Source: a virus
DNA length: 32,391 nucleotides
IMG/VR virus record: IMGVR_UViG_3300042882_000535
Coordinates: 1-32,391 of that record
Reading direction: 5' to 3' (one strand)
The notes under the pieces were generated by a model, which worked only from the letters and a program-made list of their open reading frames with translations, was not told where the DNA came from and did not search any database. This document shows positions 158 to 16,929 of the stretch, piece after piece. A program made the position numbers and the translations under genes. Numbering within the stretch: the stretch's first letter is position 1; every line of letters starts with the position of its first letter.

Positions 158-1717
158 TTATAGCACCATACTATAATTTTCACTCAACTGGTACGAAATA
201 CGCCCGACATGATCTGACTTATCTTCTATGACATATTCATTTACAATAGATGCAGTAGGCTCTATCGCAGCTATCGCTGTAGACAACGAAGAGTAGTTAA
301 CGCCAGCTTTGCTGATCACTGTAGCGGGGAGTACGGCAGTATCTAAGATGTTATAGACAGACTGGTACATCGTCACATCTTGGGATGCTTGTATATCTAC
401 AAGTTTACCAGAAATAGCACCGCTTGCATGAAAGATATTGCCTGTAGCAGTGCACCCAGTATTGTTCGTGGCACCGTCTGCATTAGCAATTAATCCCACT
501 CCTACATTACCGTCTAAGTAAATATGTACACCGTCCATACTAGTATTAGTACAACCTTTCAACTGTAAGTGTGATTGCTTACAATTTCGAGTCCTACCCC
601 CAACAGCTTTAGCTCCGGTAGTTCTTTTGAATAGTAAGCCTATACCAGAGGATACTATGTCAATACCCGTAGTTAATCCATTTTGATTAGAGCCCTGCAT
701 AACGCCGTGTCCAGCACTGGGAGCATCTCTGAATTTAAGACCTCCAACAATCCTGGTACCGCTTATAAATCCATTATTGGATGTATTGTCGTAAGCGTTG
801 GCACCATCATGGCCAATCAATACTGCGATACCACCATTGACATCTATATCAACCGTACCACCTATCACTTTAGCTCTATGTGCGGGATACGTTACGTTAT
901 CACAATCAACATGCACCCCATAAGCCGTCCCAGTTGCTGACAACGTCCTTAGTGAGATCTCTGGCTTATAAACAAGAGGACTGTCTACATTTTTAATACT
1001 TATTCCATAATCTTGCTGAGCAGGAAACGCTGCGAAGTGTTCTATTTCCACTTTAGGTTCAAGGAGTGTGACTTTAACCCCAGCACCTGTTGCTACAAAA
1101 TTAAACATAGCCCGGCCGACTTGCTTAACTAGACATCGTGCGATAGGACTACTCAAGGTTATTGACGAATTATTACCTAAGGTTAATGCATCAATCCCGC
1201 CACGATTAGAAGTAAGATCAGGAGAACCTAATAAGTGGATCTCAACAGTATTTGCGCTAGTAATATTCACTGGGTAGAATGTAGCGGTAGTCACCCGCAC
1301 AGCACCTAAATCAAACGTAAATGGACCAGCAGTAGGTGTTAATAGTATTGCATCATTTTGAACAACACTGCCCCCTCCTAGATTTATGCCGTTAGGTCCG
1401 AATCCTGCAGTTTTATTTGCCATCGCAGCTGATACCCGATAGACAGCTACCGTGCTGCTGGATTGTAAAGTAGCACCATACGCATTTACAGAATCTATGA
1501 ATATTGACTTCTGGTTTGTAAAGTAGCCAAGCCCTGCTGAGGATTCTATTTCAGAAGGAGTATATACTCCATCGTCAAACAGGATCGTGTCACCGTCTAC
1601 TGCTAATTCATATGCTCCACTATCTACACCACTATCAAACATGGTACGTTTTGCCAATGCCAACGTTAATCCTGAGTTTGCATTATTACCGTGCTTTGCT
1701 ATAAATATTGTTGCCAT
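158..1717 (-). CDS. Tail spike, beta-helix type
   Basis: This 519-residue protein starts at an ATG overlapping the stop of the anchor gene before it (TGATG), so the two are probably translationally coupled. An in-frame GTG just upstream is an alternative start. The sequence is rich in Gly, Asn, Thr and Ser with short alternating hydrophobic strands (for example GVHIYLDGNVGVGLIANAD), as in right-handed parallel beta-helix spikes. The N-terminus (IFIAKHGNNANSG, then DTILFDDGVYTPSE) looks like the first coils of a pectate-lyase-like fold. No signal peptide or membrane segment is seen. Such proteins are trimeric receptor-binding or capsule-degrading spikes. No catalytic residues can be assigned, so enzymatic activity is unknown. 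Confidence 0.75.
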   Translation of the reverse strand: MATIFIAKHGNNANSGLTLALAKRTMFDSGVDSGAYELAVDGDTILFDDGVYTPSEIESSAGLGYFTNQKSIFIDSVNAYGATLQSSSTVAVYRVSAAMANKTAGFGPNGINLGGGSVVQNDAILLTPTAGPFTFDLGAVRVTTATFYPVNITSANTVEIHLLGSPDLTSNRGGIDALTLGNNSSITLSSPIARCLVKQVGRAMFNFVATGAGVKVTLLEPKVEIEHFAAFPAQQDYGISIKNVDSPLVYKPEISLRTLSATGTAYGVHVDCDNVTYPAHRAKVIGGTVDIDVNGGIAVLIGHDGANAYDNTSNNGFISGTRIVGGLKFRDAPSAGHGVMQGSNQNGLTTGIDIVSSGIGLLFKRTTGAKAVGGRTRNCKQSHLQLKGCTNTSMDGVHIYLDGNVGVGLIANADGATNNTGCTATGNIFHASGAISGKLVDIQASQDVTMYQSVYNILDTAVLPATVISKAGVNYSSLSTAIAAIEPTASIVNEYVIEDKSDHVGRISYQLSENYSMVL

Positions 1718-2019
1718 CACTCAGCCCTAATAGAAATATTAATTACTTTACCAAAGGACCAATCAAATGTTTTTACGACACCATTTCCTGTCACTTGATA
1801 TAACAATCCATTCTGATAAGTAGCAGTATATGGTATATTTTTGTCAAGCCAAGACACTGGCCCGTATGGTCCATAAAGGACATCACTCAAGAGCGAGGCT
1901 CCTTTCTTCCGCATGACTTCGAAAGCAACTAACGTTCCTGTAAAGGTCTCTGGCCCATTAACTGCTACAACATTCGTACCGTCATTTGAAACTAACGTCC
2001 AATCTTCTGAATTAAGCAT
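1717..2019 (-). CDS. Spike adaptor carrying the shared anchor module
   Basis: A 100-residue protein whose N-terminal 40 residues (NSEDWTLVSNDGTNVVAVNG...FEVMRKKG) match the start of two other tail proteins here, at 3871-5463 and 7110-7730. The remaining 60 residues differ. It overlaps the stop of the gene before it (TAATG) behind a good ribosome site (GGAGAGG) and is followed with overlap by the beta-helix spike. The 7110-7730 gene plus its beta-helix partner has the same arrangement. I infer that it attaches the following spike to the tail or baseplate. No named family is recognised. Confidence 0.7.
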   Translation of the reverse strand: MLNSEDWTLVSNDGTNVVAVNGPETFTGTLVAFEVMRKKGASLLSDVLYGPYGPVSWLDKNIPYTATYQNGLLYQVTGNGVVKTFDWSFGKVINISIRAE

Positions 2020-2219
2020 TAGCCTCTCCGTAATATATTAAACTCTTCCATTGTGCCTTTAAAACACCCAGCTAACTCGTGCTCTGCAATAATATTATCG
2101 CCATCACTACGGATGTTCCAGTCAGATGGGATGGTTGCCGCCATGAGTTTCTTAGAAGGATTGATATGCTTGATCACTTGTGTTTCTGGGGCTTTTATAT
2201 CGGGAGTTGTTATTGTCAT
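2019..2219 (-). CDS. Small tail-associated protein with a divergent anchor module
   Basis: A 66-residue protein with AGGA nine bases before its ATG. Its second half (DWNIRSDGDNII...FKGTMEEFNILRRG) aligns by eye with the anchor module of the neighbouring spike proteins: D-W, S-(N)DG-x-N, then F/W-x-G-x-(L/M)-x-x-F-x-x-x-R-x-x-G. The first 30 residues are unrelated, proline- and lysine-rich. It is the most divergent copy and carries no further domain, so it may be a free docking peptide or a remnant of a spike lost by exchange. Confidence 0.65.
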   Translation of the reverse strand: MTITTPDIKAPETQVIKHINPSKKLMAATIPSDWNIRSDGDNIIAEHELAGCFKGTMEEFNILRRG

Positions 2220-2236
2220 TTTTTTTGTTCCTAAAG

Positions 2237-2581
2237 TTATCTTGTTAAAAATCTAATGCGATCTATGATATTCACAGTCCTGCGAACCTCACCTGCTGCT
2301 TTATGTCGTTCAAATGTGGCAGTTACTAGTTGTGGCTCGTTTTCTATAAGCCTCAAAAACAAGTCTAATTGATGATGTCTTTCAAATTCACCCTCATGCA
2401 TCGACATTGCCGTTATATGACAATTGTCACCTATTATATGAATTGTGCAGGCTCCAGCATACTGTGGTAATGTTCTATAACAAGCAGTGACACTCATAGG
2501 CTCGTTGTAAAAACGTGCAGTATATAGTCTACCATCCACACATCCACTACACTTTTTCTCTAACAAGGTATAAGAGTTCAT
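2237..2581 (-). CDS. Hypothetical protein, 114 aa, Cys-rich N-terminus
   Basis: I chose the ATG at 2581 because it overlaps, as ATGA, the stop of the small membrane-protein gene at 2578-2721. A longer frame from 2659 exists but would overlap that gene almost entirely and has no ribosome site. The product starts MNSYTLLEKKCSGC and later contains paired cysteines and histidines (CYRT, CTIHIIGDNCHI, HHQLD). No membrane segment or known motif is seen. Its position directly after holin-like genes could point to lysis, but there is no lysozyme, amidase or peptidase signature. Confidence 0.6.
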   Translation of the reverse strand: MNSYTLLEKKCSGCVDGRLYTARFYNEPMSVTACYRTLPQYAGACTIHIIGDNCHITAMSMHEGEFERHHQLDLFLRLIENEPQLVTATFERHKAAGEVRRTVNIIDRIRFLTR

Positions 2582-2721
2582 GGTGAGATCAATGCATGTA
2601 GGTAGACTAGACTTGCCCAGCCTGCAAATAAGACACTCATTGCTACTACTTGACTCCATTTATTAATAACATCTGTGCTTCTACGAGATGCTCGTCGTCT
2701 ATCTAGTTTACACTGACTCAT
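2578..2721 (-). CDS. Small membrane protein in the lysis-like cluster, 47 aa
   Basis: A short gene whose ATG lies inside the last codons of the holin candidate (the stop of the latter is within the first 14 bases here) and whose TGA overlaps the ATG of the next gene. The protein has a strongly basic N-terminal half (CKLDRRRASRRSTD) followed by one hydrophobic segment (about residues 26-45, VVAMSVLFAGWASLVYLHAL), so the basic part should be cytoplasmic. The double overlap and clear topology argue that it is real. It could be a second holin, an antiholin or a spanin-like protein; the sequence does not decide. Confidence 0.6.
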   Translation of the reverse strand: MSQCKLDRRRASRRSTDVINKWSQVVAMSVLFAGWASLVYLHALISP

Positions 2722-3079
2722 CTGTCACTTCCTTAATCAGCCTATTAGTTATTACCTTATGGGCCTTTCTAAAGATAGTCAAAGTCTCTTCTGCAAAACA
2801 GGCAAAGAAGCCTGCTAGTACTGTAGCGGGATGCGGCGGTAAAGCCATCCAACCAGCTACGCTAACCATCATAAATGATATACCTGTGGCCATTATGAAA
2901 AATCGCATCCAGCGTTTGAAACAAGCAAGATGAGATGAGCCACATGCGGACTCAAAAGCAGTTCTTGTGAAACTAGCAACGAATGCAATCACAAGAGCAC
3001 CCCAATAAGGCCCAGTAAAGAAGCTAACGACGAGACCTGTACCAATCGAAATGACAGCTTCTTCTGTCTGTGTTTGCAT
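2708..3079 (-). CDS. Putative holin
   Basis: A 123-residue protein with about three hydrophobic segments: roughly residues 9-36 (ISIGTGLVVSFFTGPYWGA and onward), 58-80 (RFFIMATGISFMMVSVAGW) and a shorter one near 82-95. It ends in a charged tail (RKAHKVITNRLIKEVTDESV). Small size, multiple membrane segments and charged C-terminus fit class I holins, which form holes in the inner membrane at lysis. A GAGAGGT ribosome site precedes the ATG. Neighbours are a 37-aa gene before and a small membrane protein after, a typical phage lysis arrangement. No endolysin is visible in the window, so the call rests on topology only. Confidence 0.6.
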   Translation of the reverse strand: MQTQTEEAVISIGTGLVVSFFTGPYWGALVIAFVASFTRTAFESACGSSHLACFKRWMRFFIMATGISFMMVSVAGWMALPPHPATVLAGFFACFAEETLTIFRKAHKVITNRLIKEVTDESV

Positions 3080-3089
3080 ACGACCTCTC

Positions 3090-3203
3090 TTATGGTTGTT
3101 TATCGAACAGGAGGAGCTCTTTCAACTCCTCACTAATATAGTATTTATATGCACCTAGTGACCAAAGGTTAAGAGGCGGTAGTTTAGGATCAGGCCAGCT
3201 CAT
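3090..3203 (-). CDS. Small hypothetical protein, 37 aa
   Basis: A short frame whose ATG lies within the end of the preceding 70-aa gene. The product begins MSWPDPKLPPLNLWSLG and continues with YKYYISEELKELLLF. The proline-rich W-P-D-P-x-L-P-P-x-N-L start followed by an amphipathic helix is, from memory, typical of tiny conserved phage proteins found beside morphogenesis genes. It fills the otherwise empty space before the holin candidate. There is no strong ribosome site, so translation probably depends on coupling. Confidence 0.6.
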   Translation of the reverse strand: MSWPDPKLPPLNLWSLGAYKYYISEELKELLLFDKQP

Positions 3204-3402
3204 AAATTGTTTGCATTACTTTTCGATGAGATGCACCACTATTGATTATACTTAACCAGTCAATCTGTGGTTTAAATAGTAATTTAGTGATATGAGCTCT
3301 AGGTAAATCACCTACAGGCATTTCTATATGAATATTAATGACGCCTTCAGTGTCAATGTTAAGTAATTTACAAACATCCTCATTTGTTAGAAAACGATTC
3401 AT
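3190..3402 (-). CDS. Hypothetical protein, 70 aa
   Basis: A small soluble protein (MNRFLTNEDVCKLLNIDTEG...). The first 25 residues (LTNEDVCKLLNI) resemble the start of a helix-turn-helix excisionase-type fold, but the rest does not confirm it. Its ATG overlaps the stop of the basic protein before it (AAATGA), and its own end overlaps the 37-aa gene. Function unknown. Confidence 0.55.
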   Translation of the reverse strand: MNRFLTNEDVCKLLNIDTEGVINIHIEMPVGDLPRAHITKLLFKPQIDWLSIINSGASHRKVMQTIYELA

Positions 3403-3827
3403 TTCTTACCCTGCATACGTTTTCCAATCTTTTGCATACGCTTACCGATTCGTTGCGTAATCTTGCTCTTCCTGGCAAAAAGTTTTTGACCGACTGAAGA
3501 GGCAGCTACTACTGGTATCGCACCTCCTAAGAATGAACCTACATTGCCACCAATCTTAGCGGCAGTCGGACTTCTTGTAGCCACATATGCTAGCGTAGCT
3601 CCGGTGCCTCTGGCATAGTAGTCGATTTTCTTAGCATTGGCCAATGTTGCTCCAAATCCTGCGCCTGTAGAGGCTGCTATAAGACTCCGGCCAACCTTGC
3701 CAGCGAACCTCATGTTTTCCACCTTCTTACCTGTGTTTTCCAAGCGGCTGCCAGCACGATTTCGTCTTTTCAAACCTTCTGATATAGCCTTTTTCCAGGC
3801 TGCATCCATTTTCCTTCCTACACTCAT
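3399..3827 (-). CDS. Basic protein, paralogue of the 13335-13853 product
   Basis: A 142-residue, very basic protein. The N-terminus (RKMDAAWKKAISEGLKR, then NRAGSRLENTGKKVE) is nearly the same as that of the 172-aa protein beside the terminase gene. Both proteins have Gly/Ala-rich middle segments able to form hydrophobic helices (about residues 47-65 and 90-112 here). Both also share a Lys/Arg-rich end with M-Q-x-x-G-K-R (IGKRMQKIGKRMQGKK here). A ribosome site AGAAGGTGG precedes the ATG. DNA binding, membrane interaction or a virion-injected role are all possible; no family is recognised. Confidence 0.65.
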   Translation of the reverse strand: MSVGRKMDAAWKKAISEGLKRRNRAGSRLENTGKKVENMRFAGKVGRSLIAASTGAGFGATLANAKKIDYYARGTGATLAYVATRSPTAAKIGGNVGSFLGGAIPVVAASSVGQKLFARKSKITQRIGKRMQKIGKRMQGKK

Positions 3828-3840
3828 ATAACCACCTTCT

Positions 3841-3855
3841 ACAATAATTTATTGT
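3841..3855. promoter_or_regulatory. Perfect 15-bp palindrome before the basic-protein gene
   Basis: ACAATAATTTATTGT is a perfect 7+1+7 palindrome lying 14 bases before the ATG at 3827, in a 43-base gap with an AT-rich flank. It could be an operator or a small hairpin affecting translation. AT-rich palindromes of this length also arise by chance in such DNA. Confidence 0.3.
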
Positions 3856-3870
3856 TTACAATATACAAAA

Positions 3871-5463
3871 TTAAAATGCTCTATATTTCTGAACGAAAGA
3901 TGGAAAGGTCATTGCATCTACTGTTCCGGCATCGATCCGCGTTTTAATACCTGCTGCAAAAATAGCAGCTTCTGCCTGAGAAAGTTCAGCCAATGTATGC
4001 CAGTAAAAAATAGCAGCTGATTGTCTGGCAATTGCCTTATCTACTGTTGCTAGCGCGGCAGCAGCATTCGCTGGACGACTGGAGTTTATTTTGTAAGCAT
4101 TAGCGATACCACCATTAACGATATTTTCCAAATCATTATTTGATATCGATTCATGTGTATTACTAGCATCGTTACGGTTTAAACCAGAGATAGACCTGCA
4201 GCCTAAAAATCCATATTTTATCGCACTATCAATCGTAGTATCGTTGAAAGTGCCATTCGGATATGACAAATAGTTATAACCTTGTTCTCGCACAAATCCA
4301 TTATCGATCAACCACTGTCTATTCTCCCGCATTTTTTCAGGAGAAACAACAAACTCATTAGTAACGTTACCATGGACACAAATCGCGTTACCTCTGTCGT
4401 AAATCTCCTTAAGCTGCTCAAGAGTTTGATAACCAGGCTGCGTCTGATGGCTATCTATGAAATCTTTTATCACAAAGGATGTCGTTGGAATTCCATATGA
4501 ATTCATGATACGCGTTAATAGTATAGATTCCTCATTACTATCATCGAATGTCACAACCACAGGTGCTTTCTTGTTTTCTGCAAAACCACCAACAAACAAC
4601 GAATCAATATAGAATGGATTACCTGTATAAGAGGCGTCAGGTGTGAACCTAATTTGTGCTCTTTTTACTGTTGACCAATTTACGTGAGCAGTGCCTCCTA
4701 TTTGTATCGTGAAGTCTGTCTTTGTTACCCTAATGTTATTCCAGCCGCGACGAAAACTTCCACCGCCCACACCGCAGATATTACAACCACTGGCATTCGC
4801 CATCGTAGCATCACCGAGAGCCAGCAAAACGGAGGAACCCACAGAACTTCCCGAATTAGCTAAAGGGCCATCACAATAAACCCATAAGGAAAAACCATCG
4901 ACACCGCTTAAATCATAAGTGTTCTGTAAATCCTTGTATTTCCCATGAACTGTAGATACGCCTGCAATGTTTCCTTGCTTAATAGTTGCAGTATTAAATT
5001 TTGTAAACAAGGTAGATTGTTCAAAAATCGGGCTATTACTACCGTTCTGCGACGGAGTCCAGCCTGCTATGTCGATGAATTTAGAGCCAGCGACATCAAG
5101 ATTATGTCCATCTAGTTGCATTCCAAACAATGCCCGCTTAGGACTGTAATTTTTCCTGAATGATGTCGTGCTATCACCATCAGAGCTGTACAAATCACTG
5201 CCAATCTGTGTAAGGCCTACTCCAGGTTTTATCTGAGTTGCCTGCCTCACATTCAACTTTGAGGATTCTTCCAAAGATTCGCTAAGAAACTCTTGATGCA
5301 CTAGGCTTTTAAACACGGGGGCGTCATCTATAATTTCAGGATCACCTAATAGCCTTAGTGATTCAAAATCCGCTAGTTTGCCTGACCAAGTTTTCGATCC
5401 GTTAATTGCTGTTACGTTTGTACCGTCGTTACTGATCAAAGACCAGTCTGAATTTTTTAACAT
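3871..5463 (-). CDS. Tail spike fused to a polysaccharide deacetylase domain
   Basis: A 530-residue protein in three parts. Residues 1-40 are the shared anchor module (LKNSDWSLISNDGTNV...). Residues of about 150-295 are beta-rich and look like a carbohydrate-binding jelly roll (FSLWVYCDGP, FYIDSLFVGGF). Residues of about 300-500 are a NodB-type polysaccharide deacetylase: VVVTFDDSNEES (metal and catalytic Asp), CVHGNVTN (His), YPNG, and FYWHTL (final His). The second His of the usual H-x3-H metal motif is replaced by Thr, which is unusual. Such spikes deacetylate capsule or O-antigen for host entry. I chose the second ATG (5463) because it is better spaced from AAGGAG and matches the MLKNS start of the paralogue at 7730. 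Confidence 0.85.
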   Translation of the reverse strand: MLKNSDWSLISNDGTNVTAINGSKTWSGKLADFESLRLLGDPEIIDDAPVFKSLVHQEFLSESLEESSKLNVRQATQIKPGVGLTQIGSDLYSSDGDSTTSFRKNYSPKRALFGMQLDGHNLDVAGSKFIDIAGWTPSQNGSNSPIFEQSTLFTKFNTATIKQGNIAGVSTVHGKYKDLQNTYDLSGVDGFSLWVYCDGPLANSGSSVGSSVLLALGDATMANASGCNICGVGGGSFRRGWNNIRVTKTDFTIQIGGTAHVNWSTVKRAQIRFTPDASYTGNPFYIDSLFVGGFAENKKAPVVVTFDDSNEESILLTRIMNSYGIPTTSFVIKDFIDSHQTQPGYQTLEQLKEIYDRGNAICVHGNVTNEFVVSPEKMRENRQWLIDNGFVREQGYNYLSYPNGTFNDTTIDSAIKYGFLGCRSISGLNRNDASNTHESISNNDLENIVNGGIANAYKINSSRPANAAAALATVDKAIARQSAAIFYWHTLAELSQAEAAIFAAGIKTRIDAGTVDAMTFPSFVQKYRAF

Positions 5464-5466
5464 CAT

Positions 5467-5516
5467 TTCTCCTTAATTGAGGAGGCCTCTCAACCAAGAC
5501 ACTCCTCATGTTTAAA
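5467..5516 (-). promoter_or_regulatory. Hairpin just before the deacetylase spike start
   Basis: In the short gap before the ATG at 5463 the minus strand carries TGAGGAG, a loop of about 17 bases, and CTCCTCA (7 bp stem). The actual ribosome site AAGGAG follows closely. The stem could reduce readthrough or compete with the ribosome site. There is no T-run, so it is not a typical terminator. Confidence 0.35.
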
Positions 5517-7109
5517 TTAGTTCGCGTAGAATACGTTCTTCGGATGCTTAGAGTGTAATGTGCTCTGCACCCCACCCCAATCTATATATTCTTCAGGAAA
5601 TGGATTTTGATGCCCATCACAAGGTTTTTGACACTGACTCAGACCCGCAATAGGAAACCTTGATGCCCAAAATTTTGAAGCTGAACCTATAAGCGCCGTA
5701 GGAGACTCCTTGGTCAACCTGAAGTTCGAATCCAATTTAGGATCACTAGTAATCGAGTTAGCAGATGGCGCAATAGCGGCAGCTGCCCGATAACTATAAA
5801 TCCTACTTGCAGTGCCATAATAAACATTATCACCTATAGTATCGCGCTCTGAAATTAGATTGTACTGGCTTCCAACACTACCAGTATTAATGCAAATATT
5901 CTTATCAAAGATCACAGGACTTGCTGTATCAATTGCATCAGACCCAAAAGCCTTTTTATAATTATACCCATTCTCAGAGTTAGATCTTTGTAAGGTGTTG
6001 TGATAGAATGCAATTCCCGTAACAGCGGTTTTTGCCCCATCATTTCTCAATTCTATGTTGTTATATCTTGCATCAGTGAATAGGTTACCTGCACCAAAGA
6101 AGTTGAATGTAAGTGCTGTATTAGTTTCAGTATTCAACACTAAAGAATGGTATCCACCTTGTACATTATTACCAACAGCTGTCACATCGTTTGCAGCAAA
6201 GTACATACCAACATTGACTGTTGCCATCCTAAAGGCTTTGACTGTATTTCTAACAGCTAATCCACCGGTCACTCCAGCATTTAATGTAGTCACAATTATG
6301 CAATGCTTAGTGTCGGATGTAGAGTGATCAACATAATTGTCGTGAATATAGAAGTTGCTTGAGTATCCCGACAACTGGATACCATCACCTTGACCAATTC
6401 CATCTGACGCTTGTAAGAACATACCTACATTTGTCATATAGTTATAGCCCGCTTCAGCGTTTGCACCATTCATCCAAATAGCGTCTACACCAATATTATT
6501 CAGTTTATTATTGATCGCCCTTATATTTGAACCATATAAGTAGATGCCTGACTCGTGAGTACCTTCGTTAAATAACGAATCATGTAGATTACAATTTTGT
6601 ACAACAACACCGGAATGTACATTAGGAGTGGCGGAAGAGTTAATAATCATCTTACCACGCATATTAGAGCAATCCATGTGGTCAACTATTACATTTGTCG
6701 CATTTACAAAGATAGCGCTCGTGACTGCAGTTGATGCAACGCCGGTGGCTGTTGTGTCCGAATTACCTACAAAACGCGGCATATTAGGATCCGCGTTAAT
6801 AGTCGGCAATATACCATCCCCATAATAGCTAATCAATACTGGTTTTGTTGCATCGTCTGAGCTGAGTTCCCATCGAATCGCAGAAAAGTCGTTGCCTGTT
6901 CCATAAGGATTTCGCGTATTGATAACAGAACCTGTCTTGATTAGAAATTTACAATTCAGATATATATTACCTCCACCAAAACCAGGCCACCACCCTCCAC
7001 TAACAGCATAAGGAGATACTCGATTGAAAGGAGTCTCAGGTGTCAAGCCATTTCCCATAGTAGGCGCTGATGGATCTATATAATATGTCTTATTTGATAC
7101 GTAAGCCAT
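5517..7109 (-). CDS. Tail spike with right-handed beta-helix
   Basis: A 530-residue protein with an ATG behind a strong site (GGAGGTG). It starts like secreted or phage beta-helix enzymes (TYYIDPSAPTMGNGLTPETPF). Repeating coils follow over roughly residues 130-400, such as NVIVDHMDCSNMRGK, VVVQNCNLHDS, NIRAINNKLNNIG and NFYIHDNYVDHSTS. The N-x-(I/V)-x-x-N-x-(I/V) spacing is typical of pectate-lyase-like parallel beta-helix proteins. Phage spikes with this fold bind and often cleave capsule or O-antigen; no active site can be assigned with confidence. The gene directly follows the anchor-bearing gene at 7110-7730 with no gap, suggesting the two products assemble together. Confidence 0.8.
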   Translation of the reverse strand: MAYVSNKTYYIDPSAPTMGNGLTPETPFNRVSPYAVSGGWWPGFGGGNIYLNCKFLIKTGSVINTRNPYGTGNDFSAIRWELSSDDATKPVLISYYGDGILPTINADPNMPRFVGNSDTTATGVASTAVTSAIFVNATNVIVDHMDCSNMRGKMIINSSATPNVHSGVVVQNCNLHDSLFNEGTHESGIYLYGSNIRAINNKLNNIGVDAIWMNGANAEAGYNYMTNVGMFLQASDGIGQGDGIQLSGYSSNFYIHDNYVDHSTSDTKHCIIVTTLNAGVTGGLAVRNTVKAFRMATVNVGMYFAANDVTAVGNNVQGGYHSLVLNTETNTALTFNFFGAGNLFTDARYNNIELRNDGAKTAVTGIAFYHNTLQRSNSENGYNYKKAFGSDAIDTASPVIFDKNICINTGSVGSQYNLISERDTIGDNVYYGTASRIYSYRAAAAIAPSANSITSDPKLDSNFRLTKESPTALIGSASKFWASRFPIAGLSQCQKPCDGHQNPFPEEYIDWGGVQSTLHSKHPKNVFYAN

Positions 7110-7730
7110 TTAAACACCTCCAGTCACTTTTACTGAATTTGTACCAGTAATTGAAACTAGTCCAAACATTCTACAGCCTGTGCCTATCTCAAATACATTG
7201 GAGTCTCCTGCGTCTACCTTAATAGCACCAGCTTTTGTCAAGTCAGATAGGCTATCTCCTACAACATTTGGAAATTCGTTAAACGCAATGTATATAGGAT
7301 TTGCTCCAGAATTTACGACTTTCAACTTTGACACCCATTCTGCAATAGTATCTAGGACGACTGCCTGTAGAACTGAGTAAGTTGTGTTAAACACAGTAGG
7401 AATGAATCCTCCACTATTAGCATAGTAAGTCCCGTCACATTTTACGAATTTATCGCCTATTTGTGCAATGCCAACGCCAAACTCTGCAGGAGCAGATAAT
7501 GTAGATACCTGTTGAACATTAGCCTTAAACTGTTGTTCTAGGTATTCACTTAGAAAGTCCTGATGAGCAGCATTCTTGAAGACGGGAGCTCCATTTACGA
7601 TCTCAGGGTCGCCTAGTCGTTTTAAGGCTTCAAAGGCAAGTAATGTGCCTGACCAGTTTCTAGAGCCATTAACTGCAGTGACGTTAGTTCCATCATTGCT
7701 GGTCAATAACCAATTTGAATTTTTTAACAT
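7110..7730 (-). CDS. Tail spike adaptor with the shared anchor module, 206 aa
   Basis: Residues 1-45 (MLKNSNWLLTSNDGTNVTAVNG...FEALKRLGDPEIVNGAPVF) match residues 1-55 of the deacetylase spike closely, including the next segment H-Q-(D/E)-F-L-S-E-x-L-E. The following region (GVGIAQIGDKFVKCDGTYY) also has a counterpart there (GVGLTQIGSDLYSSDG), so homology extends to about residue 110. The last 90 residues are beta-rich and end without an enzyme domain (SVKVTGGV). A good ribosome site (GAGGAG) precedes ATG. I infer a tail or baseplate attachment protein for the beta-helix spike encoded immediately after it. Confidence 0.75.
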   Translation of the reverse strand: MLKNSNWLLTSNDGTNVTAVNGSRNWSGTLLAFEALKRLGDPEIVNGAPVFKNAAHQDFLSEYLEQQFKANVQQVSTLSAPAEFGVGIAQIGDKFVKCDGTYYANSGGFIPTVFNTTYSVLQAVVLDTIAEWVSKLKVVNSGANPIYIAFNEFPNVVGDSLSDLTKAGAIKVDAGDSNVFEIGTGCRMFGLVSITGTNSVKVTGGV

Positions 7731-7745
7731 TAAGTCTCCTCTAAA

Positions 7746-8057
7746 TTATTGTAAGTTCTTTTCCACGACAAATTCACCTATCTCGCTACTCCAGCTGCCG
7801 CTAGGTAACGTAACCTTACCCTGGACTTTCCAAGTACGATCTTGGTCTAGAAATCCAGCTTCAGTAACGTACCTAATCAGCCCATCAGAACCGTTAGTGG
7901 AAAATTGTGCGGTCTTCACAACAACAGATCTATCAGGTTTTTGAAAGATTAATTGTTTAATGGTAGCAGTAGATAGGCCAGAAAGAGGTTGTCCATTTTC
8001 AAGCAGCTCAACCTCAATAACTGTCCCAGTATCGCCTACATGAAAATCTGCTGGCAT
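7746..8057 (-). CDS. Tail/baseplate Ig-like protein (BppU N-terminal-like)
   Basis: A 103-residue, all-beta protein: FHVGDTGTVIEVELLENGQPL, then (I/K)QLIFQKPDRSVVVKTAQF, then TWKVQGKVTLPSG and IGEFVVEKNLQ. The order of D-x-G-(T)-x-(I/L) start, K-P-D-(G/R)-S hairpin, T-W-x-(V/I)-x-(G/A) strand and G-x-F-x-V-E end is, from memory, the pattern of the small domain at the N-terminus of baseplate upper proteins and of free-standing phage tail proteins. Position between virion proteins and spikes supports a baseplate or spike-anchoring role. Confidence 0.65.
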   Translation of the reverse strand: MPADFHVGDTGTVIEVELLENGQPLSGLSTATIKQLIFQKPDRSVVVKTAQFSTNGSDGLIRYVTEAGFLDQDRTWKVQGKVTLPSGSWSSEIGEFVVEKNLQ

Positions 8058-8059
8058 TA

Positions 8060-8929
8060 TTATGACTCCAAATGTAATGTTAAACGCTTATTAACAGCTA
8101 GTAATAATTTAGTTCCAGTGCTCAGCATCGTGATATTACTAATTCGTAATGTCTTCTTAATTAGCAGCTCTTGGCTTAAAGATCTGGAGATCACGCTAGT
8201 AGACCTTTTACTGCGACCAATTGTTGATCCAATTCTCGAGGAACGATTAACTACCAGGCTGAATCTTTGTATATCTGCTGGGGCTACTTGTGAAACACCT
8301 ACTTCACCAGAGGTAACTTCGTTATTTTGAGAAGCATCTGCGCCTGTCAGCACGTGTGATTGAGCAATATCACCCACTGATGTCTGAGAATCTTGGATGC
8401 CACTGTCACCGGCTAGACCGTGAAGTTGAGAAAGTGTGTCTACTGAGGATTCAGCAGATTGCTCAACGCTGTCCCCAGTCAAAGAGACTATACTAGTGAT
8501 AGAAATTTGACCATCGGTTGCACTACTATCTTGAGCTGAATTCAATCCAGACAATATATTGATCTGTTCTATAGCCGCTGAACTCGCAGAACTATCTTGA
8601 CTAGCTGATTGTCCAGCTAAGTCGAATATTTCACCAATAGCCCCTACACCTGATTCTGCAACTTGTATAGCATCGAGACCGGTAAGGTCTATTATCTGTG
8701 ATATACTGCCAACAGAAGCTTCATTGTTCTGTAAGGAATTAGCACCAGTTAAGTCTACTGAAGTAATTGCATTGTATATAAACGCAACCTCACCACCAAG
8801 CAGTAGTGAGATTTTTGAGGGATACGTTGTTGTATTTAGTATCTGTGCAGAAGCTTTTTCCAACACTAGTGATGTAGGAGTGATTGCTGCTGGAGACAGT
8901 TTAAATACTACATCACTACTTATTTGCAT
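8060..8929 (-). CDS. Virion protein with seven 22-residue repeats
   Basis: A 289-residue protein. Residues 59-214 consist of seven consecutive repeats of 22 residues (the fourth has 24). They begin at residues 59, 81, 103, 125, 149, 171 and 193. Each repeat starts with (D/G/V/S)-L-(T/A/S)-G and has Q at the ninth position (for example LTGANSLQNNEASVGSIS). Similar L-T-G-based repeats occur in structural proteins of marine and T7-like phages, as far as I recall. The N-terminus is unique and the C-terminus (about 220-289) is basic with strand-like segments. Probably an extended fibre or tail component; the copy number of repeats may vary between relatives. Confidence 0.7.
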   Translation of the reverse strand: MQISSDVVFKLSPAAITPTSLVLEKASAQILNTTTYPSKISLLLGGEVAFIYNAITSVDLTGANSLQNNEASVGSISQIIDLTGLDAIQVAESGVGAIGEIFDLAGQSASQDSSASSAAIEQINILSGLNSAQDSSATDGQISITSIVSLTGDSVEQSAESSVDTLSQLHGLAGDSGIQDSQTSVGDIAQSHVLTGADASQNNEVTSGEVGVSQVAPADIQRFSLVVNRSSRIGSTIGRSKRSTSVISRSLSQELLIKKTLRISNITMLSTGTKLLLAVNKRLTLHLES

Positions 8930-8930
8930 T

Positions 8931-11084
8931 TTAGGTTGCGCTCACTTTCGCGTATATCTCAACACCATTTGGCAAACCAGCTGATGGTATGAAGCGTCTT
9001 CTGAGACCAGAAGTATTTCCACCAAGCCCATTTACCCATGTAGTACCGTTGTGATACTGCCAATTTCCATTAGCAGTGCTATTACTATCTTGTACGAGCA
9101 CTGCTGCGTTAGTATCAGCCCGATAATAGGTAATTGAAAGACTCGTCAAAGTTGTGAATACAACAGATTGAACAACTCCGAGTGTGCCATCAGCATTGTT
9201 TGAATCACTCAAATTCCAGCGAAGTTCTGGTGGTAGTGAATCGTCTGCATCATACAACACACCTAGCGAGTGTATTCTTGCTGGAATAGCACTAGCACCC
9301 ATTGTTCTAAATTCAAACATGAATTGTATATATGCGCTCCCATCTACACCAGATAAATCTCCGTCATTGTCCACTAATGTCCATGCTCCAGAGTTATCAG
9401 CAATACCCGCAGTTCTATAATAGAGTTTATAAGGTTCAGGCGGTATACCTAAGTTACTCCCAGAAGCTGCTCCAATTATACGATCACTGGCTGTAAATGC
9501 TTTTGAAAACTTATTAACACCTGGCACCGCAATTCTTGGGCTTATAATCCTACAACCTGTTGATGCAGCATATTCCCAATCTGCCCCAATCGGGGAGCCA
9601 TATAGCCAACCGAATGTTGTGCTATTATTCGCTAGGTACGCCATACCGCCCTCGACCCAAGGTTGTAAAGCTGCTGAGGTGTGTATGCTAATGGGAGCGT
9701 CGGGTGACGCGTTAGTGCCATTTTGTAATCTTGATGTATTGTAGACCATGCGATCGAAAGGAGAAGAGTCTGTCTTATACTCAGTAAGAAAACTGCCCCA
9801 TATAACACCGGAAGGTGTGGTCGTTGTGATTAAGAACTTATCTATTGATGAAGCGTAATCAAACGCCGACAATGCACCCGATGAAGCCTGTGTTGCGCTC
9901 CCTCCAGTAGCAATTTCTACCATCATATCTCCAGCCGATATAAAAGTAGTATCTCCTGTACCTATCAGGCTTAATGCTTTTGTTCTATATAATCGAGTGG
10001 TGGTTATGAAATATAGGCACTCTACTCCCATTCCAGGGCCATGTCCTGCACTAACAACCTTTGCATTAGATGTTTGTGCAACGGTGCCTGTTAAAGTAGC
10101 AGAAACAGCAGTAGAATATTGAAATGCTGTAGTATCAGCTCCAGAAGTCAACGTAAGTGCTGCTCTTATATTAAACTTGAATAGCTGACATGTAGAAGTA
10201 CCATTTGCAAACCAAGCCATTTGCGATTGAAAACTAGTTTTCGTCTGCAACCCAATACCGGTATTAACGGTTTCGGTGATAGTTGCAGCAGACTTTAACC
10301 AATAGCAAGCTCTTATATTATCTACAGTTGTAGCAGCGGGTATTGCGAGACCACCAGACAAGAAGTTCTCAACTCTTAAGCCTTTAACTACAAACAATCC
10401 ACCATTAGTAGTAGTTGCATTCGTGTTTCCGAGAATCAACCGCAGGTCTTCAATCACATACGGCGTACCAGCGGCAATGGTCCCTGCTGAAGCTGTCAGT
10501 GTGATTCCTGTATTGGAACCAATAGCACTTATCTCATACCATGTCGTAATTTCAGATGGATCAGTTGATCCGAAGCCTATTCTATTTCCAACACAAGCTC
10601 TGTCTGTTTGCCAAGAGGTTCCTACACCTGTTACAGCAGTACCACTTGCGGAAATTGTTCCAGCAGTGTGTAGGTCGTAGGTATTGCATAAGGAAACGAT
10701 AGAAGCATTCGTAGCTACAGGAAAAGTTACTGTAATAAATCCTTTCCAAGTAAGAGTAGCCGTTAATCTGTCTTCTTCATAAAGAACAATCCTACGTGTC
10801 GCGCCAGCAGTTGCATTGTCGGCAAAGAACACCCAATCTTTCATACTGGTGGGTGTGTTGCTCCAACGCATCGCTGTAGGTGCGCGTAAAGGTATTGCAG
10901 TACTGGCTTCTAGAGGCCTACCTAGCTGTAATGGTAAGGGGCCTGTCCAGTTATCTTCTGGAGTAACCCCACTCATTTGCGTCATTAATGGACCTAAGCC
11001 TAATTTGTCAGGGTCGTAAGTCTCCATGCCTAACCGATAACTCAGTAAGTTACCAAAATCTATTTTTTCCGCTGCATAGCTCAT
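8931..11084 (-). CDS. Large virion structural protein, 717 aa
   Basis: A long protein rich in Thr, Ser, Ala and Gly with many short beta-strand patterns (for example TATLTWKGFITVTFP and ASGTAVTGVGTSWQTD). The segment GTISASGTAVTGVGTSW resembles the G-T-x-x-x-x-G-T-x-V-T-G-x-G-T-x-(W/F) beta-stretch common in phage tail and neck proteins. The start ATG overlaps the stop of the preceding gene and has AGGAGAG upstream. It lies between terminase-linked small genes and the repeat protein, consistent with a tail or tail-fibre component. There is no known enzyme motif, signal or membrane segment. Confidence 0.65.
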   Translation of the reverse strand: MSYAAEKIDFGNLLSYRLGMETYDPDKLGLGPLMTQMSGVTPEDNWTGPLPLQLGRPLEASTAIPLRAPTAMRWSNTPTSMKDWVFFADNATAGATRRIVLYEEDRLTATLTWKGFITVTFPVATNASIVSLCNTYDLHTAGTISASGTAVTGVGTSWQTDRACVGNRIGFGSTDPSEITTWYEISAIGSNTGITLTASAGTIAAGTPYVIEDLRLILGNTNATTTNGGLFVVKGLRVENFLSGGLAIPAATTVDNIRACYWLKSAATITETVNTGIGLQTKTSFQSQMAWFANGTSTCQLFKFNIRAALTLTSGADTTAFQYSTAVSATLTGTVAQTSNAKVVSAGHGPGMGVECLYFITTTRLYRTKALSLIGTGDTTFISAGDMMVEIATGGSATQASSGALSAFDYASSIDKFLITTTTPSGVIWGSFLTEYKTDSSPFDRMVYNTSRLQNGTNASPDAPISIHTSAALQPWVEGGMAYLANNSTTFGWLYGSPIGADWEYAASTGCRIISPRIAVPGVNKFSKAFTASDRIIGAASGSNLGIPPEPYKLYYRTAGIADNSGAWTLVDNDGDLSGVDGSAYIQFMFEFRTMGASAIPARIHSLGVLYDADDSLPPELRWNLSDSNNADGTLGVVQSVVFTTLTSLSITYYRADTNAAVLVQDSNSTANGNWQYHNGTTWVNGLGGNTSGLRRRFIPSAGLPNGVEIYAKVSAT

Positions 11085-11509
11085 GCAAACTCTCCTGTTT
11101 CAATGAATTGTGCCTGAAATGCACAAGAAACACCGTCTGCATTTTGGACTTCTACTAAAGCTGTTGATGCGTACGTGCCTGTTGTTTTTACAACCCAAGA
11201 AGCATCATGAAAACAAGGCTTTCCGCTACTAAGCACAATAGTTGGAATTGCTAAATCACCTTCAACTATTGATCCCAGTATTTCATCTGCTCTGCCTGGA
11301 GATAATAATCCCGCTGCTTCAAAAGCATGTACTCCAGCAATAACAGAAGGCTCACTAGTGTCAATTGCAGTCCCATCGCTGTCTGGCGTTAAATTGTTAA
11401 ATTTAAATAACCACACCTCAATAGCCGACACAGTCTTTTCTGCAGCTAGTATAGCAGTAACTTCTTCAGTTGTGAATCTATTAATGAACTGTTGCTTAGT
11501 CAGTCTCAT
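11081..11509 (-). CDS. Hypothetical virion-associated protein, 142 aa
   Basis: Begins MRLTKQQFINRFTTEEVTAILAAEKT, an amphipathic helical start, then EVWLFKFNNLTP, a proline/serine-rich linker, and a C-terminal beta-rich part. Four bases separate it from the stop of the gene before, and it overlaps the start of the 717-aa protein, so it belongs to the same transcription unit. The N-terminal pattern (T-x-x-E-x-x-x-I-x-x-A) is, as far as I recall, seen in small phage structural proteins. Function not known. Confidence 0.6.
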   Translation of the reverse strand: MRLTKQQFINRFTTEEVTAILAAEKTVSAIEVWLFKFNNLTPDSDGTAIDTSEPSVIAGVHAFEAAGLLSPGRADEILGSIVEGDLAIPTIVLSSGKPCFHDASWVVKTTGTYASTALVEVQNADGVSCAFQAQFIETGEFA

Positions 11510-11514
11510 TTGAG

Positions 11515-11901
11515 TTACACGGGTTGTTTATTTGTGTATGTCAGTGAGGGAAATGTAGTAATATTCCCAACAGTAACTGTCTGTCCTGAGCTTTCAGTTG
11601 TCACCCATAGGACTTTAGAGTTTGCAGTATCTACAAAAGCGAAGTGTGTAGGATCACCTGTATTATTAGCAGCGGTATCCTGCTTACCAGCTGAGAAAGT
11701 CAATACACGATCATTACCACTAGTACTTAGTACGAAATCTCCGGATGTTAGTGTAGCCTCTGCTACAATATTTCCAGCTGTCATAACTGTGGCATAGCTA
11801 TCACCACTCGTATAAGCTATCACTGCGACAACTTTGTTACAATTATTCTTTATATAGTTCAGACCATTGTCTAAAACATCTTGATGTGCCCATTTAGCCA
11901 T
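11515..11901 (-). CDS. Hypothetical virion protein, 128 aa
   Basis: Starts MAKWAHQDVLDNGLNYIKNNC, a pattern I recall from small structural proteins of podoviruses and siphoviruses, followed by an all-beta body (GDFVLSTSGNDRVLTFSAGK, KVLWVTTESSGQTVTVGNI). AGAGG lies just before the ATG. It is the first gene after the large terminase. A decoration, head-completion or tail role is possible; nothing in the sequence decides. Confidence 0.6.
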   Translation of the reverse strand: MAKWAHQDVLDNGLNYIKNNCNKVVAVIAYTSGDSYATVMTAGNIVAEATLTSGDFVLSTSGNDRVLTFSAGKQDTAANNTGDPTHFAFVDTANSKVLWVTTESSGQTVTVGNITTFPSLTYTNKQPV

Positions 11902-11916
11902 AAAACCTCTTGTGAC

Positions 11917-13338
11917 CTAATAATTCTTACTTTTATGAGACCCTGCTCTACCGAGCAAGATAGGATATTTGTATTCACAGAAGTATCGCACACCATCAGA
12001 GAAATGTTCTTCACCTTCTGTCTTATCAATGATTGCACCATCTTTATCTGCCCAGACAGTACGCTCCATAGAACGAATTGTTTTAACTTGTTTGGGAGAG
12101 AAATACATAGAAGTCTCGCCACTAGCTGTCAATAGTTTACGATTAACCGCATTAGCACTATCCACAATAGGAGGTGACTTCTTATGAGCCAACACCGTAA
12201 ATCCCATTGATTGCAAGATTGATAAATCAGTCCTGCCAACAGGTGTAGATGTCTTGCGAGATTTGCCAGTAGGGTCTGGATAAGCATATACTTTAAAAGG
12301 CAAGCCATTAACTCTTCGTTTAATAGCTTCCGGTGAGGAAGTATCTAGATTTGGAATAAAGCGATTTAAAATGGCAATGCCTAGTGTCTCTGTGTCAGGA
12401 TGCCCAAAACACTCATCAATGCCAAGTATCACGTCATCACGTATGACATACATACTAGTGGCTTGGATATCAACGTTAAAGTCGATAGCGCAATGTACAT
12501 CCTCATCAGGAAATCTTTCCAAATCTTCATCAAGCACATGAATCGCTCTATCGAAGCAGTAAAATACGCTCTTACCTGACTCTTTAAAATCAGCACCATA
12601 CTCAGATGACCAAGATACTGGATCCATCTCTGACTTGAGTGCTTCAATCTCAGCAGGATCAAGCTCAGGAGATGTCGTATAATCAAACTTATTGAACACC
12701 CACTCATTAGACACAGTGTGCATCTGACACAGATCATAGAAGAAATTGAATCCTTCAGGAGTAGATATCATCATACCCTTACCTGATGTAAGCTTAAGTG
12801 CTGCTTCTACATGTCTATCAGTAGACCTCTTATCATTCAAGATACGCTCTTTAATCGCTGATGTCTTCATCACAGACCAACGAGTATTGATGCAAGGTCT
12901 TATAATCTTCTCCCAAGCTTGCTTAGGTTTCATACCTTTCTTGCAGCTTGAGACTTCGTCCCATAACACAAAGAATGCACCTTTACCACGCATCCTTTCA
13001 ACACTCTCATATGAAATCAAACGTAATTTTGTGTTATTTGGAAATAATGCTCTACCATCACTTTCGGAAGAGCTTTTAGCTATTCTTGACAATTGTAACT
13101 CATCAAATAACACAGGCCAGTAGATGTCAACTGCCTGGTCAAATGTTGGTCCAATCACATATACACGCTTGTTAGGCACCCAAGCAGGTAACTCCATCAG
13201 TTGTTGAATAGCTATTCTAACCGCCGAAGCACCTGCATAGGTCTTACCCCAACCCCTTGAACAACAGTCAGTCGAAAACCTGGTATCTGTGAAGAGCAAT
13301 TGTCTGACAACACGAGATTGACCAGGATGCAACTTCAT
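11917..13338 (-). CDS. terL: Terminase large subunit
   Basis: A 473-residue DNA-packaging motor protein. Residues 27-33 (SRGWGKT) are the Walker A site, 122-128 (FFVLWDE) the Walker B site with catalytic Glu, and the MISTPEG stretch near 190-196 is the coupling motif. A C-terminal RNase H-like nuclease domain begins at about 283 (CAIDFNVD, first metal-binding Asp 286). It cuts concatemeric DNA and translocates it into the procapsid through the portal. The ATG overlaps the stop of the basic-protein gene (AAAATGA). Length is normal for podovirus-type terminases. Confidence 0.9.
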   Translation of the reverse strand: MKLHPGQSRVVRQLLFTDTRFSTDCCSRGWGKTYAGASAVRIAIQQLMELPAWVPNKRVYVIGPTFDQAVDIYWPVLFDELQLSRIAKSSSESDGRALFPNNTKLRLISYESVERMRGKGAFFVLWDEVSSCKKGMKPKQAWEKIIRPCINTRWSVMKTSAIKERILNDKRSTDRHVEAALKLTSGKGMMISTPEGFNFFYDLCQMHTVSNEWVFNKFDYTTSPELDPAEIEALKSEMDPVSWSSEYGADFKESGKSVFYCFDRAIHVLDEDLERFPDEDVHCAIDFNVDIQATSMYVIRDDVILGIDECFGHPDTETLGIAILNRFIPNLDTSSPEAIKRRVNGLPFKVYAYPDPTGKSRKTSTPVGRTDLSILQSMGFTVLAHKKSPPIVDSANAVNRKLLTASGETSMYFSPKQVKTIRSMERTVWADKDGAIIDKTEGEEHFSDGVRYFCEYKYPILLGRAGSHKSKNY

Positions 13339-13853
13339 TTTTGTAACCGTTTTCCCGCTCTTTGCATAGAGGAGCCAACACCTCGTACAATCGCAGAACC
13401 AAAGCTAGCTTCCACAGGTCTGGCAGCCCCCAACACAAATCCAGCAATTTTGCCTACTTTCTGTGATCTTCTTAGAAATTTAGTAGCATTCTTTACAGCG
13501 GCTTCTGCTTTCGCTTGCGCAGCTTTCGTGGCAGGCCTACTCAATTCACGTTGTAAAGCTTTATTAAAACTTACTACTGACTTCGCTTTATTCAACTCTC
13601 TAATCCCTTTTGGAGTGTATTTAACAAGTGCCTGTCCTTTACGAAGCTTATAAGCCATACCCAAGCTACCAATCACAGAACCAGCAATGAACCCTCTTGC
13701 AGTACCAGTGGCGATACTTGCTGCTTTTTGACTAGCTCGAGATCCAATAACTTTTCCAGAATTCTCGATGCCCTTACCAGCACCTCTCCTAGCACGTTTT
13801 AATCCTTCAGAGATCGCTTTCTTCCAGGCATCATCCATACGTCTTCCACTCAT
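13335..13853 (-). CDS. Basic protein, paralogue of the 3399-3827 product
   Basis: A 172-residue, highly basic Ala/Gly/Lys-rich protein between the small and large terminase genes. Its N-terminus (RRMDDAWKKAISEGLKR, then RGAGKGIENSGKVI) matches that of the 142-aa protein at 3399-3827, and both end in M-Q-x-x-G-K-R. A hydrophobic glycine-rich stretch (ATGTARGFIAGSVIGSLGMA, about residues 50-69) and a second (KIAGFVLGAA, about 137-146) could be membrane-active helices. The ribosome site GGAG lies upstream. The role may be DNA binding, ejection or assembly; no family is recognised. Confidence 0.65.
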   Translation of the reverse strand: MSGRRMDDAWKKAISEGLKRARRGAGKGIENSGKVIGSRASQKAASIATGTARGFIAGSVIGSLGMAYKLRKGQALVKYTPKGIRELNKAKSVVSFNKALQRELSRPATKAAQAKAEAAVKNATKFLRRSQKVGKIAGFVLGAARPVEASFGSAIVRGVGSSMQRAGKRLQK

Positions 13854-13856
13854 AAT

Positions 13857-13994
13857 TCACTCCAAGTCTCTCATCACTGTATCAAGTAATGCACTAAAAC
13901 AATCACGAATGTTTGAGCACACATTAGTACACAAACACATAAATATCCAACACAACCATATAAGGCTGACTAAAATTGCTCTAATTAGCTTCAT
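13857..13994 (-). CDS. Small membrane protein, 45 aa
   Basis: A short frame whose ATG overlaps the last codons of the probable small terminase and whose TGA ends two bases before the next ATG. It fills an otherwise empty 127-base gap. The product has one strongly hydrophobic segment near the N-terminus (KLIRAILVSLIWLCWIFMC) preceded by a lysine and arginine, then a soluble tail with several cysteines. Overlap at both ends and the clear hydrophobic profile support it; the lack of a ribosome site keeps it tentative. Confidence 0.5.
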   Translation of the reverse strand: MKLIRAILVSLIWLCWIFMCLCTNVCSNIRDCFSALLDTVMRDLE

Positions 13995-14412
13995 CTGTAA
14001 ATATTATTGGCAACATTGGTACATCTTCATCATCGTCACTAGTAACAACTTCTGTAACTCTGCCATAAGCAAAGCGCATAAGCTCTTTGGCAACATTCAC
14101 TTGTGCATTATCCACTGCCAACACATCCTCATTCTTAACATAGATTGGCTTTCCAGTTTTATTGTTGAGTTCCAAAACAGCACCAGATCTTCGTTGTTCT
14201 AGATATTGTCTTTCATTCTGCAATTCCATAAACTTACGTACTAGTGCTTCACAAGGATCAAAATCTAGCTGTTCTAAGCGTCTTCGAGAATCACGCTCCA
14301 ATCTTCGTTTTCTTGTTAACACAGCACCATTCTCATCGTAAGTTGCTGGTCTTCCAGGAGGCTCAGGGTTGTGTTGACTGAAGACCTCTTCAGGGTCTTT
14401 AAAATCAAACAT
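13981..14412 (-). CDS. terS: Probable terminase small subunit
   Basis: A 143-residue protein, first gene of the late block, preceded by GAGGTC and ATG. It begins MFDFKDPEEVFSQHNPEPPGRP, then a very basic helix (LTRKRRLERDSRRRLEQLDFDP) and a helical middle (CEALVRKFMELQNERQYLEQRR). The tail is acidic (VTSDDDEDVPMLP). The position just upstream of the large terminase, the charged helical region and the size suit a small terminase that recognises phage DNA. There is no clear helix-turn-helix, so this is inference from context. Confidence 0.5.
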   Translation of the reverse strand: MFDFKDPEEVFSQHNPEPPGRPATYDENGAVLTRKRRLERDSRRRLEQLDFDPCEALVRKFMELQNERQYLEQRRSGAVLELNNKTGKPIYVKNEDVLAVDNAQVNVAKELMRFAYGRVTEVVTSDDDEDVPMLPIIFTDEAN

Positions 14413-14452
14413 ATTGACCTCGACTAAGATATATTATTTAGATAACTAAATA

Positions 14453-14584
14453 AATAACTTAAGAATAAACAATTAATAACTTAAAAATAATATATTAATA
14501 ACTGAATAATAACATATTAACACTATATTAATAACTTAAAAATAACATATTAATAACTGAATAATAACTAAGAAGTAACTAGCT
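14453..14584. repeat. AT-rich 11-bp phased repeat array, about 12 units
   Basis: Units beginning AATAAC or a one-base variant recur every 11 bases from 14453: 14453, 14464, 14475, 14486, 14497, 14508, 14519 (degenerate), 14530, 14541, 14552, 14563 and 14574. On top of this a 42-bp stretch at 14472-14513 is repeated at 14527-14568 with a single mismatch. The array is almost pure A/T and lies at the border of the replication and late gene blocks. It could be a DNA-unwinding or origin element, a curved DNA site near the late promoter, or a protein-binding iteron array. The repeat is plainly visible; its role is unknown. Confidence 0.85.
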
Positions 14585-14612
14585 AATTTCGTTTAAGTTA
14601 CCTTCTTTAAGT

Positions 14613-14618
14613 ATTATA
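14613..14618 (-). promoter_or_regulatory. Candidate -10 box of a late promoter
   Basis: A perfect TATAAT on the minus strand about 200 bases before the small-terminase start. No convincing -35 box lies 17 bases upstream. In such AT-rich DNA the hexamer may be chance, so this is only a candidate. Confidence 0.25.
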
Positions 14619-14820
14619 TTAATATCCATATTGGTACTTCTTTAGTTATTTTCTAGAATAACTCATCTTCTTTAGCTAAGAAGAAGCAAAAAAAAAAAAA
14701 ACTCTTCTCGCTCCTCGCTCCATTAATTTACCTGCTGCTCCTTCTATCGTGTATTAGAAGCTTTCCAAAAATCAACTTATCGAACTTCCAGAAGGTCTTC
14801 AAAATACTGCCCTTCGCAAG

Positions 14821-14884
14821 AAAAAAAAAAAATAGTGAAAGAACCCACCCCAGAAGCCCGAAGGCCTCCAGAGTGAGTTTTTTT
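14821..14884 (-). terminator. Strong UUCG-loop terminator at the end of the replication block
   Basis: Just after the stop of the gene at 14888, the minus-strand RNA can form a 16-bp stem (14863-14878 with 14843-14858) closed by a UUCG loop, the stable C(UUCG)G type. Several pairs are G-U wobbles, so the stem is complete only in minus-strand RNA. It is followed by TTCTTT and, further on, a 12-T run. Seven Ts also flank it on the plus strand (14878-14884), so some bidirectional activity is possible. Confidence 0.75.
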
Positions 14885-14887
14885 AGG

Positions 14888-15716: not shown

Positions 15717-15717
15717 A

Positions 15718-16925: not shown

Positions 16926-16929
16926 ATTA

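Follow-up and report, generated by a model that had tools for sequence, protein, structure and literature searches.

The window analysed here is the whole of a 32,391-base virus record (IMGVR_UViG_3300042882_000535). On the minus strand, a group of tail-type genes is flanked on one side by the terminase large-subunit gene (11917-13338); on the other side, in the close relative L003 (source record IMGVR_UViG_3300035666_000015), stands a gene for a DUF4055-type portal (PF13264 match, E 5.1e-6). The features on which the analysis centers are the following:

158-1720, minus strand: module-less 520-residue protein, spike-like by sequence character and context, whose ORF is coupled to the 100-residue ORF
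1717-2019, minus strand: 100-residue adaptor-like protein, consisting of the module and a C-terminal five-strand region (residues 55-99)
1900-2019, minus strand: module, residues 1-40 of the 100-residue adaptor-like protein (from sequence comparison and AlphaFold2, AF2)
2019-2219, minus strand: 66-residue protein, member of the pre-portal small-protein family
2022-2135, minus strand: module, residues 29-66, the extreme C-terminus of the 66-residue pre-portal-family protein
3828-7470, minus strand: cassette exchanged en bloc in L003 (from comparison with L003)
4207-4575, minus strand: polysaccharide deacetylase domain (NodB, PF01522, E 3.6e-11), residues 298-420 of the 531-residue protein
5344-5466, minus strand: module at residues 1-41 of the NodB fusion protein
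5517-7109, minus strand: module-less 530-residue protein, spike-like by sequence character and context
7110-7730, minus strand: 206-residue adaptor-like protein, abutting the 530-residue spike ORF
7473-7730, minus strand: conserved anchor part of the 206-residue protein, approximately residues 1-86, comprising the module and a linker (L003 similarity stops here)

An N-terminal module of about 40 residues is common to the 100-, 206-, and 531-residue proteins, all encoded on the minus strand. It reads MLNSEDWTLVSNDGTNVVAVNGPETFTGTLVAFEVMRKKG in the 100-residue protein (1717-2019), MMLKNSDWSLISNDGTNVTAINGSKTWSGKLADFESLRLLG in the 531-residue protein (3871-5466), and MLKNSNWLLTSNDGTNVTAVNGSRNWSGTLLAFEALKRLG in the 206-residue protein (7110-7730). 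Pairwise blastp comparisons give E values of 3.7e-16 (100 vs 206 residues), 2.6e-16 (100 vs 531), and 8.5e-38 (206 vs 531), and the starts of the 206- and 531-residue genes have ~71% DNA identity. The shared motif that the initial annotation had placed at the start of the products of 1717-2019, 3871-5463, and 7110-7730 is therefore real (blastp E 1e-16 to 1e-38); for the 531-residue ORF, the start can be placed at 5466 (MMLKN). The module was also said to precede or be fused to three different spikes, and the gene layout agrees: the 100-residue ORF has a 4-nt overlap with the 520-residue ORF, the 530-residue ORF starts exactly at the end of the 206-residue ORF, and the third copy is fused to the NodB protein (PF01522). 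The 520- and 530-residue proteins have no match in Pfam, PHROG, or PDB, and appear to be spikes on the basis of their sequence character and genomic context. The window phage thus has an N-terminal segment common to at least two putative RBPs, namely the 100-, 206-, and 531-residue proteins.

Several other genes of the window and of its relatives merit description in their own right. Two small basic proteins, encoded at 3399-3827 in the tail-lysis region and at 13335-13853 (minus strand) just before the terminase gene, share an N-terminal segment (GRKMDAAWKKAISEGLKR / GRRMDDAWKKAISEGLKR, blastp E 1e-9); the L002 version of the 13335-13853 protein has an internal deletion (78 vs 172 residues). 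The 717-residue protein (8931-11084) has relatives at 32-46% identity in L006 (9953-12067), L007 (6141-8291), and L008 (10001-12049). The relative in L007 lies among baseplate-type genes of a myovirus-like contig, and those in L008, a 300-kb viral contig, are tandem paralogues, several with LamG-looking starts. The 289-residue protein (8060-8929) contains degenerate repeats of ~25-30 residues of the type LTGxxxxQxxxxSxGxIxQI, and similarly repetitive proteins are found in related fibre cassettes (L359 4661-5455 and L360 3702-5741). A 103-residue protein was considered as a relative of the L022 1555-1887 product and gave no alignment. In phage DSS3_VP1 (L014 4390-6410), the terminase large subunit gene is in two pieces, with an endonuclease VII-annotated ORF between them.

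The 66-residue protein differs from the other three in both the position of the module and its gene context. The initial annotation described it as carrying the module in degenerate form. Homology is upheld by a blastp match to the 100-residue protein (E 1.3e-5) and by a profile built without the 66-residue protein, with which it outranks 20,000 shuffles of itself (top of 20,001), although its own profile E value within the window is 0.019. Degeneracy is ruled out: against the profile of the wider family, the protein scores at E 2e-13, better than the three N-terminal copies, which a second-round profile built without them recovers at ~5e-5 to 5e-3, and it represents a conserved pre-portal family in this locus. 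Because of this match, the 66-residue protein is the regular form and the N-terminal copies of the window look derived. Nor does the module stand at the start of this product, as had been stated, but at its C-terminus (residues 29-66). The count of four tail proteins likewise needs correction, since the 66-residue protein belongs to a widespread pre-portal family whose role in the tail is not demonstrated.

This wider family surfaced only through gene position, via a portal search. A scan of viral contigs with a portal alignment yielded 80 loci, 60 of which have a usable portal start; in 47 of these 60, the ORF immediately ahead of the portal gene has a small product with the module as its last ~40 residues. 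In the window lineage, the 100- and 520-residue ORFs stand between the 66-residue gene and the portal. With further finds, the pre-portal family amounts to 59 distinct small proteins of 62-172 residues (median 87), in which the module ends 0-7 residues from the C-terminus and for which the consensus is ERVPSNWEITAEEDGIISATNSVTGEVFEGTMKEFNAALRG. The N-terminal tails are of low complexity (A 12%, E 11%, P 10.5%, V 10%, K 10%, T 9%), and the W, A, G, and F positions of the module are kept in at least 90% of 66 copies. Except for EBPR siphovirus 1, the relatives are uncultivated contigs, several of them fragmentary, sampled via portal or motif patterns.

Among cultured phages, the module has no match apart from a weak homologue in EBPR siphovirus 1, gp45 (JF412302, E 6.5e-5), which occupies the same pre-portal position. 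This 65-residue protein, annotated merely as hypothetical, is homologous to the 66-residue protein and has the C-terminal end CEWALTPSPKGLCARTGNFIWEGSVEDFNARNRQ. The phage, the nearest relative with a name, is related to the lineage in its TerL (48%) and portal (39%); the module was not found in the spike-region proteins of its partial record, a point against the docking reading given below. EBPR siphovirus 1 has a tape measure gene, which suggests long tails for the group.

Scans of 47 members against Pfam, PHROG, and NCBIfam return no family that covers the module, whether an anchor, a tail-fibre, or any other family, in agreement with the initial annotation, which named no family for it. 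A tblastn search of 50,697 phage records with the window modules and a consensus gives chance-level matches only, and a search of viral contigs with the window alignment recovers only two near-identical relatives. In bacterial and archaeal genomes, a degenerate DNA pattern finds no host or prophage among the matches listed; the profile matches among those listed are weak and fall on the TG-E-x-F-x-G-T core of long, unrelated-looking ORFs, and the pattern matches L333-L338 are below the profile threshold.

AlphaFold2 predicts a beta-beta-beta-alpha fold for the module from 66 sequences, with pLDDT of ~90 in a pre-portal member and 60-80 in the 100-residue protein, where the strands are at residues 8-12, 17-21, and 24-28 and the helix at 30-39. 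The N-terminal tail of the pre-portal protein is predicted as coil (pLDDT ~60). Foldseek finds no match at E <= 0.001 for either model, which does not in itself make the fold new. The best VIA matches (Z 2.4) are release-factor and other unrelated chains, and profile searches of the PDB give no significant match to the module. A likeness to Sm/LSM proteins is not significant: the match of the L137 module region (E 0.015) is below the Pfam cut-off, and the corresponding PDB profile matches have E values of 0.35 or higher.

The profile search of the module against phage proteins that had been proposed as a check finds it on NodB, GDSL-like, and fibre-like proteins in other phages. All sound copies that are not C-terminal start at residue 5-14 of other proteins, apart from one at residue 33. 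N-terminal copies are located (i) on a NodB protein in L089 (PF01522, E 1e-9), (ii) on a GDSL-like hydrolase in L052 (weak match, E 0.0023), (iii) at the head of two fibre-like proteins in L065, (iv) on an 820-residue protein that heads a fibre-type cassette in L360, and (v) on a 283-residue protein just after a tail-hub-like ORF in L359. Others are on small separate proteins, such as a 67-residue protein in L128, encoded a short way ahead of a pectate-lyase spike (phrog_11548, E 4.6e-73), and a 125-residue protein upstream of a 1043-residue protein in L059. In L137, L142, and L198, the protein that bears the module has 277 residues and is encoded ahead of a terminase of a different type. The window copies have an NDG(T/S) core, which recurs in L128, L089, L141, and L359. 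A 52-residue ORF in L052 (6019-6177), just upstream of a second GDSL protein, has the first half of the module alone and is possibly a decaying adaptor. Behind the kept N-terminus, the carbohydrate-active cargo varies and includes NodB, GDSL-like, and pectate lyase proteins as well as the cassette of L003.

Of 34 records searched whole, 32 carry the module at E <= 0.01. Both kinds of copy are present in seven of the 34 and an N-terminal copy only in two, while most have the pre-portal copy alone. A tree built from 67 modules places 11 N-terminal copies, drawn from six lineages, in one cluster (local support 0.86). The window tags fall among the N-terminal tags found in other phages, at local supports of 0.90 and 0.86, and the window’s own pre-portal copy stands apart from them. 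This grouping would fit tags that travel with spikes, although with 40 positions the resolution is limited and the tree is suggestive only.

Two close relatives record natural exchange and loss at the module boundary. Window positions 7471-17675 match L003 1-10260 at 98.6% identity up to a break that falls after ~86 codons of the 206-residue gene. Similarity resumes from window position 3827 downward at 91.6%. In between, L003 has a replacement block with a different adaptor tail and a 687-residue protein with a weak NodB match (E 0.022). As the match stops at approximately codon 86 and the block behind it is replaced, the anchor part is retained in L003 while what follows differs. In L015, which has a portal 99% identical to the L003 one, both the 100- and 520-residue genes are deleted, and a scar at 2190-2230 that consists of the first ten codons of the 100-residue gene lies directly before the portal start. 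The 66-residue gene is intact, which means that adaptor and spike were lost as a unit and the pre-portal gene was kept. The initial annotation had proposed a docking tag that lets the phage add or swap depolymerases. Its swap component is borne out by an N-terminal unit on carbohydrate-active tail-type proteins that is swappable, both here and independently elsewhere, with a natural replacement (L003) and a loss (L015) that respect the module boundary.

A docking element best fits the terminal placement of the module, the position of the exchange point just behind it, and the loss of the adaptor together with its spike. The best reading of the sequence data is that the module represents a new docking-module family for modular spikes, used either fused or as a separate adaptor. 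We assign a probability of roughly 60% to its being a docking plug for different polysaccharide-active spikes at one common virion site. The ~37-40-residue beta-beta-beta-alpha mini-domain would then serve as the standard plug by which interchangeable spikes are mounted on a shared site. Two modes of mounting are envisaged: (i) the plug is fused to the N-terminus of the enzyme, as in the 531-residue NodB protein, and (ii) the plug is a small separate adaptor, as in the 100-, 206-, and 164-residue proteins, encoded directly upstream of a module-less spike that presumably binds the C-terminal part of the adaptor. Cassettes would be swapped or lost at the module boundary, such that the plug stays and the enzyme changes.

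The spikes and the pre-portal protein probably have one socket in common, some component of the virion or of its assembly, because the same domain ends a small portal-adjacent protein in most phages of the lineage. Since most records have the pre-portal copy alone, spike docking cannot be the general role of the module and may be a secondary use of the domain. A more specific, and doubtful, version of the docking model has the pre-portal protein and the spikes use the same socket, a spike-docking site close to the neck or portal at which the pre-portal protein would serve as placeholder, gauge, or resident occupant; adaptor genes would let any module-less enzyme be mounted.

The alternative that survives best, although it is unlikely, is that the module primarily belongs to the pre-portal protein, which would act like T7 gp7.3 as an assembly factor or tail-completion element, and that the spikes borrowed it, which would place their assembly not at the tail tip but at the neck or the portal-tail junction. 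The gene for T7 gp7.3 adjoins the portal gene, and the pre-portal gene does so in 47 of the 60 loci. The protein gp7.3 is described as located at the adaptor-nozzle junction, with its C-terminal loop resolved, and as required in assembly and adsorption (PMC11784390); a short segment at its C-terminal end attaches it to the tail. The two are alike as small portal-adjacent proteins with an N-terminus of low order and an ordered C-terminal segment, here by AF2 only (coil-like tail with pLDDT ~60, well-predicted domain with pLDDT ~90), and the retention of the pre-portal gene in L015, where adaptor and spike are lost, is also consistent with such a role. However, gp7.3 is a podophage protein with an N-terminus described as mostly positive (PMC11784390), whereas the tails here are a mixture rich in A/E/P/V/K/T and these phages look like siphoviruses, as judged by the tape measure gene of EBPR siphovirus 1. 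The assembly-factor explanation is also compatible with docking, as it mainly names a socket; a pre-portal protein behaving like gp7.3 could share one socket with the spikes near the portal or tail.

That the module is instead a carbohydrate-binding accessory domain, tethering enzymes to host or matrix glycans like a small lectin, is very unlikely. It is carried by carbohydrate-active proteins and has weak PDB profile matches to OAA-type lectins (E 0.17 and 3.9), one of which spans the conserved Trp, but these matches are not significant and lectins are absent from the reported fold matches. Moreover, the N-terminus is normally the virion-proximal end of spikes, and in dozens of phages the module also forms the C-terminal end of a pre-portal protein that is not an enzyme and would have no obvious use for glycan binding. 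Local duplication, by which copies of the 66-residue gene spread in the locus and persist as a passive linker with no shared binding function, would account for several copies in one locus and for the ~71% DNA identity noted above, but has very little likelihood given that the window N-terminal copies resemble those in other phages more closely than the pre-portal copy of their own locus, that the W, A, G, and F positions are so widely conserved, and that terminal placement is consistent across lineages.

The docking reading has counterparts in characterized phages. Short conserved N-terminal docking peptides and anchor domains are found on multi-depolymerase phages, including the Klebsiella KP32, KP34, Menlow, and phiK64-1 groups and SP6/K1-5 (PMC6872550). 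In these systems, as here, a short N-terminal segment is common to otherwise unrelated spikes of one phage, and the enzymes are exchanged behind it. The present module differs in that it has no PHROG or Pfam match, is often a separate small ORF, and is also the C-terminus of a pre-portal protein; furthermore, no T4gp10-like branching domain was identified here. In siphophage Sf11, the tailspike adaptor is the adaptor region of the distal tail protein (PMC12724387). Both cases involve enzymatic tailspikes on a long-tailed phage with a small adaptor element, through which the spikes would be mounted here. In Sf11, the distal tail protein provides the adaptor as a helical extension, whereas the present module is a predicted beta-beta-beta-alpha domain on spikes or separate proteins.

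A few groups of cultured phages are already known to mount spikes in a modular way, and each uses anchors of its own. The module described here adds a recognisable domain family without a name, which marks genes for spikes, adaptors, and pre-portal proteins in a large, almost wholly uncultivated siphovirus-like lineage, in which natural exchange and loss are visible at the domain boundary. It raises the question of why a portal-adjacent protein bears the same plug as the spikes, and it provides a sequence handle for host-recognition enzymes in metagenomes.
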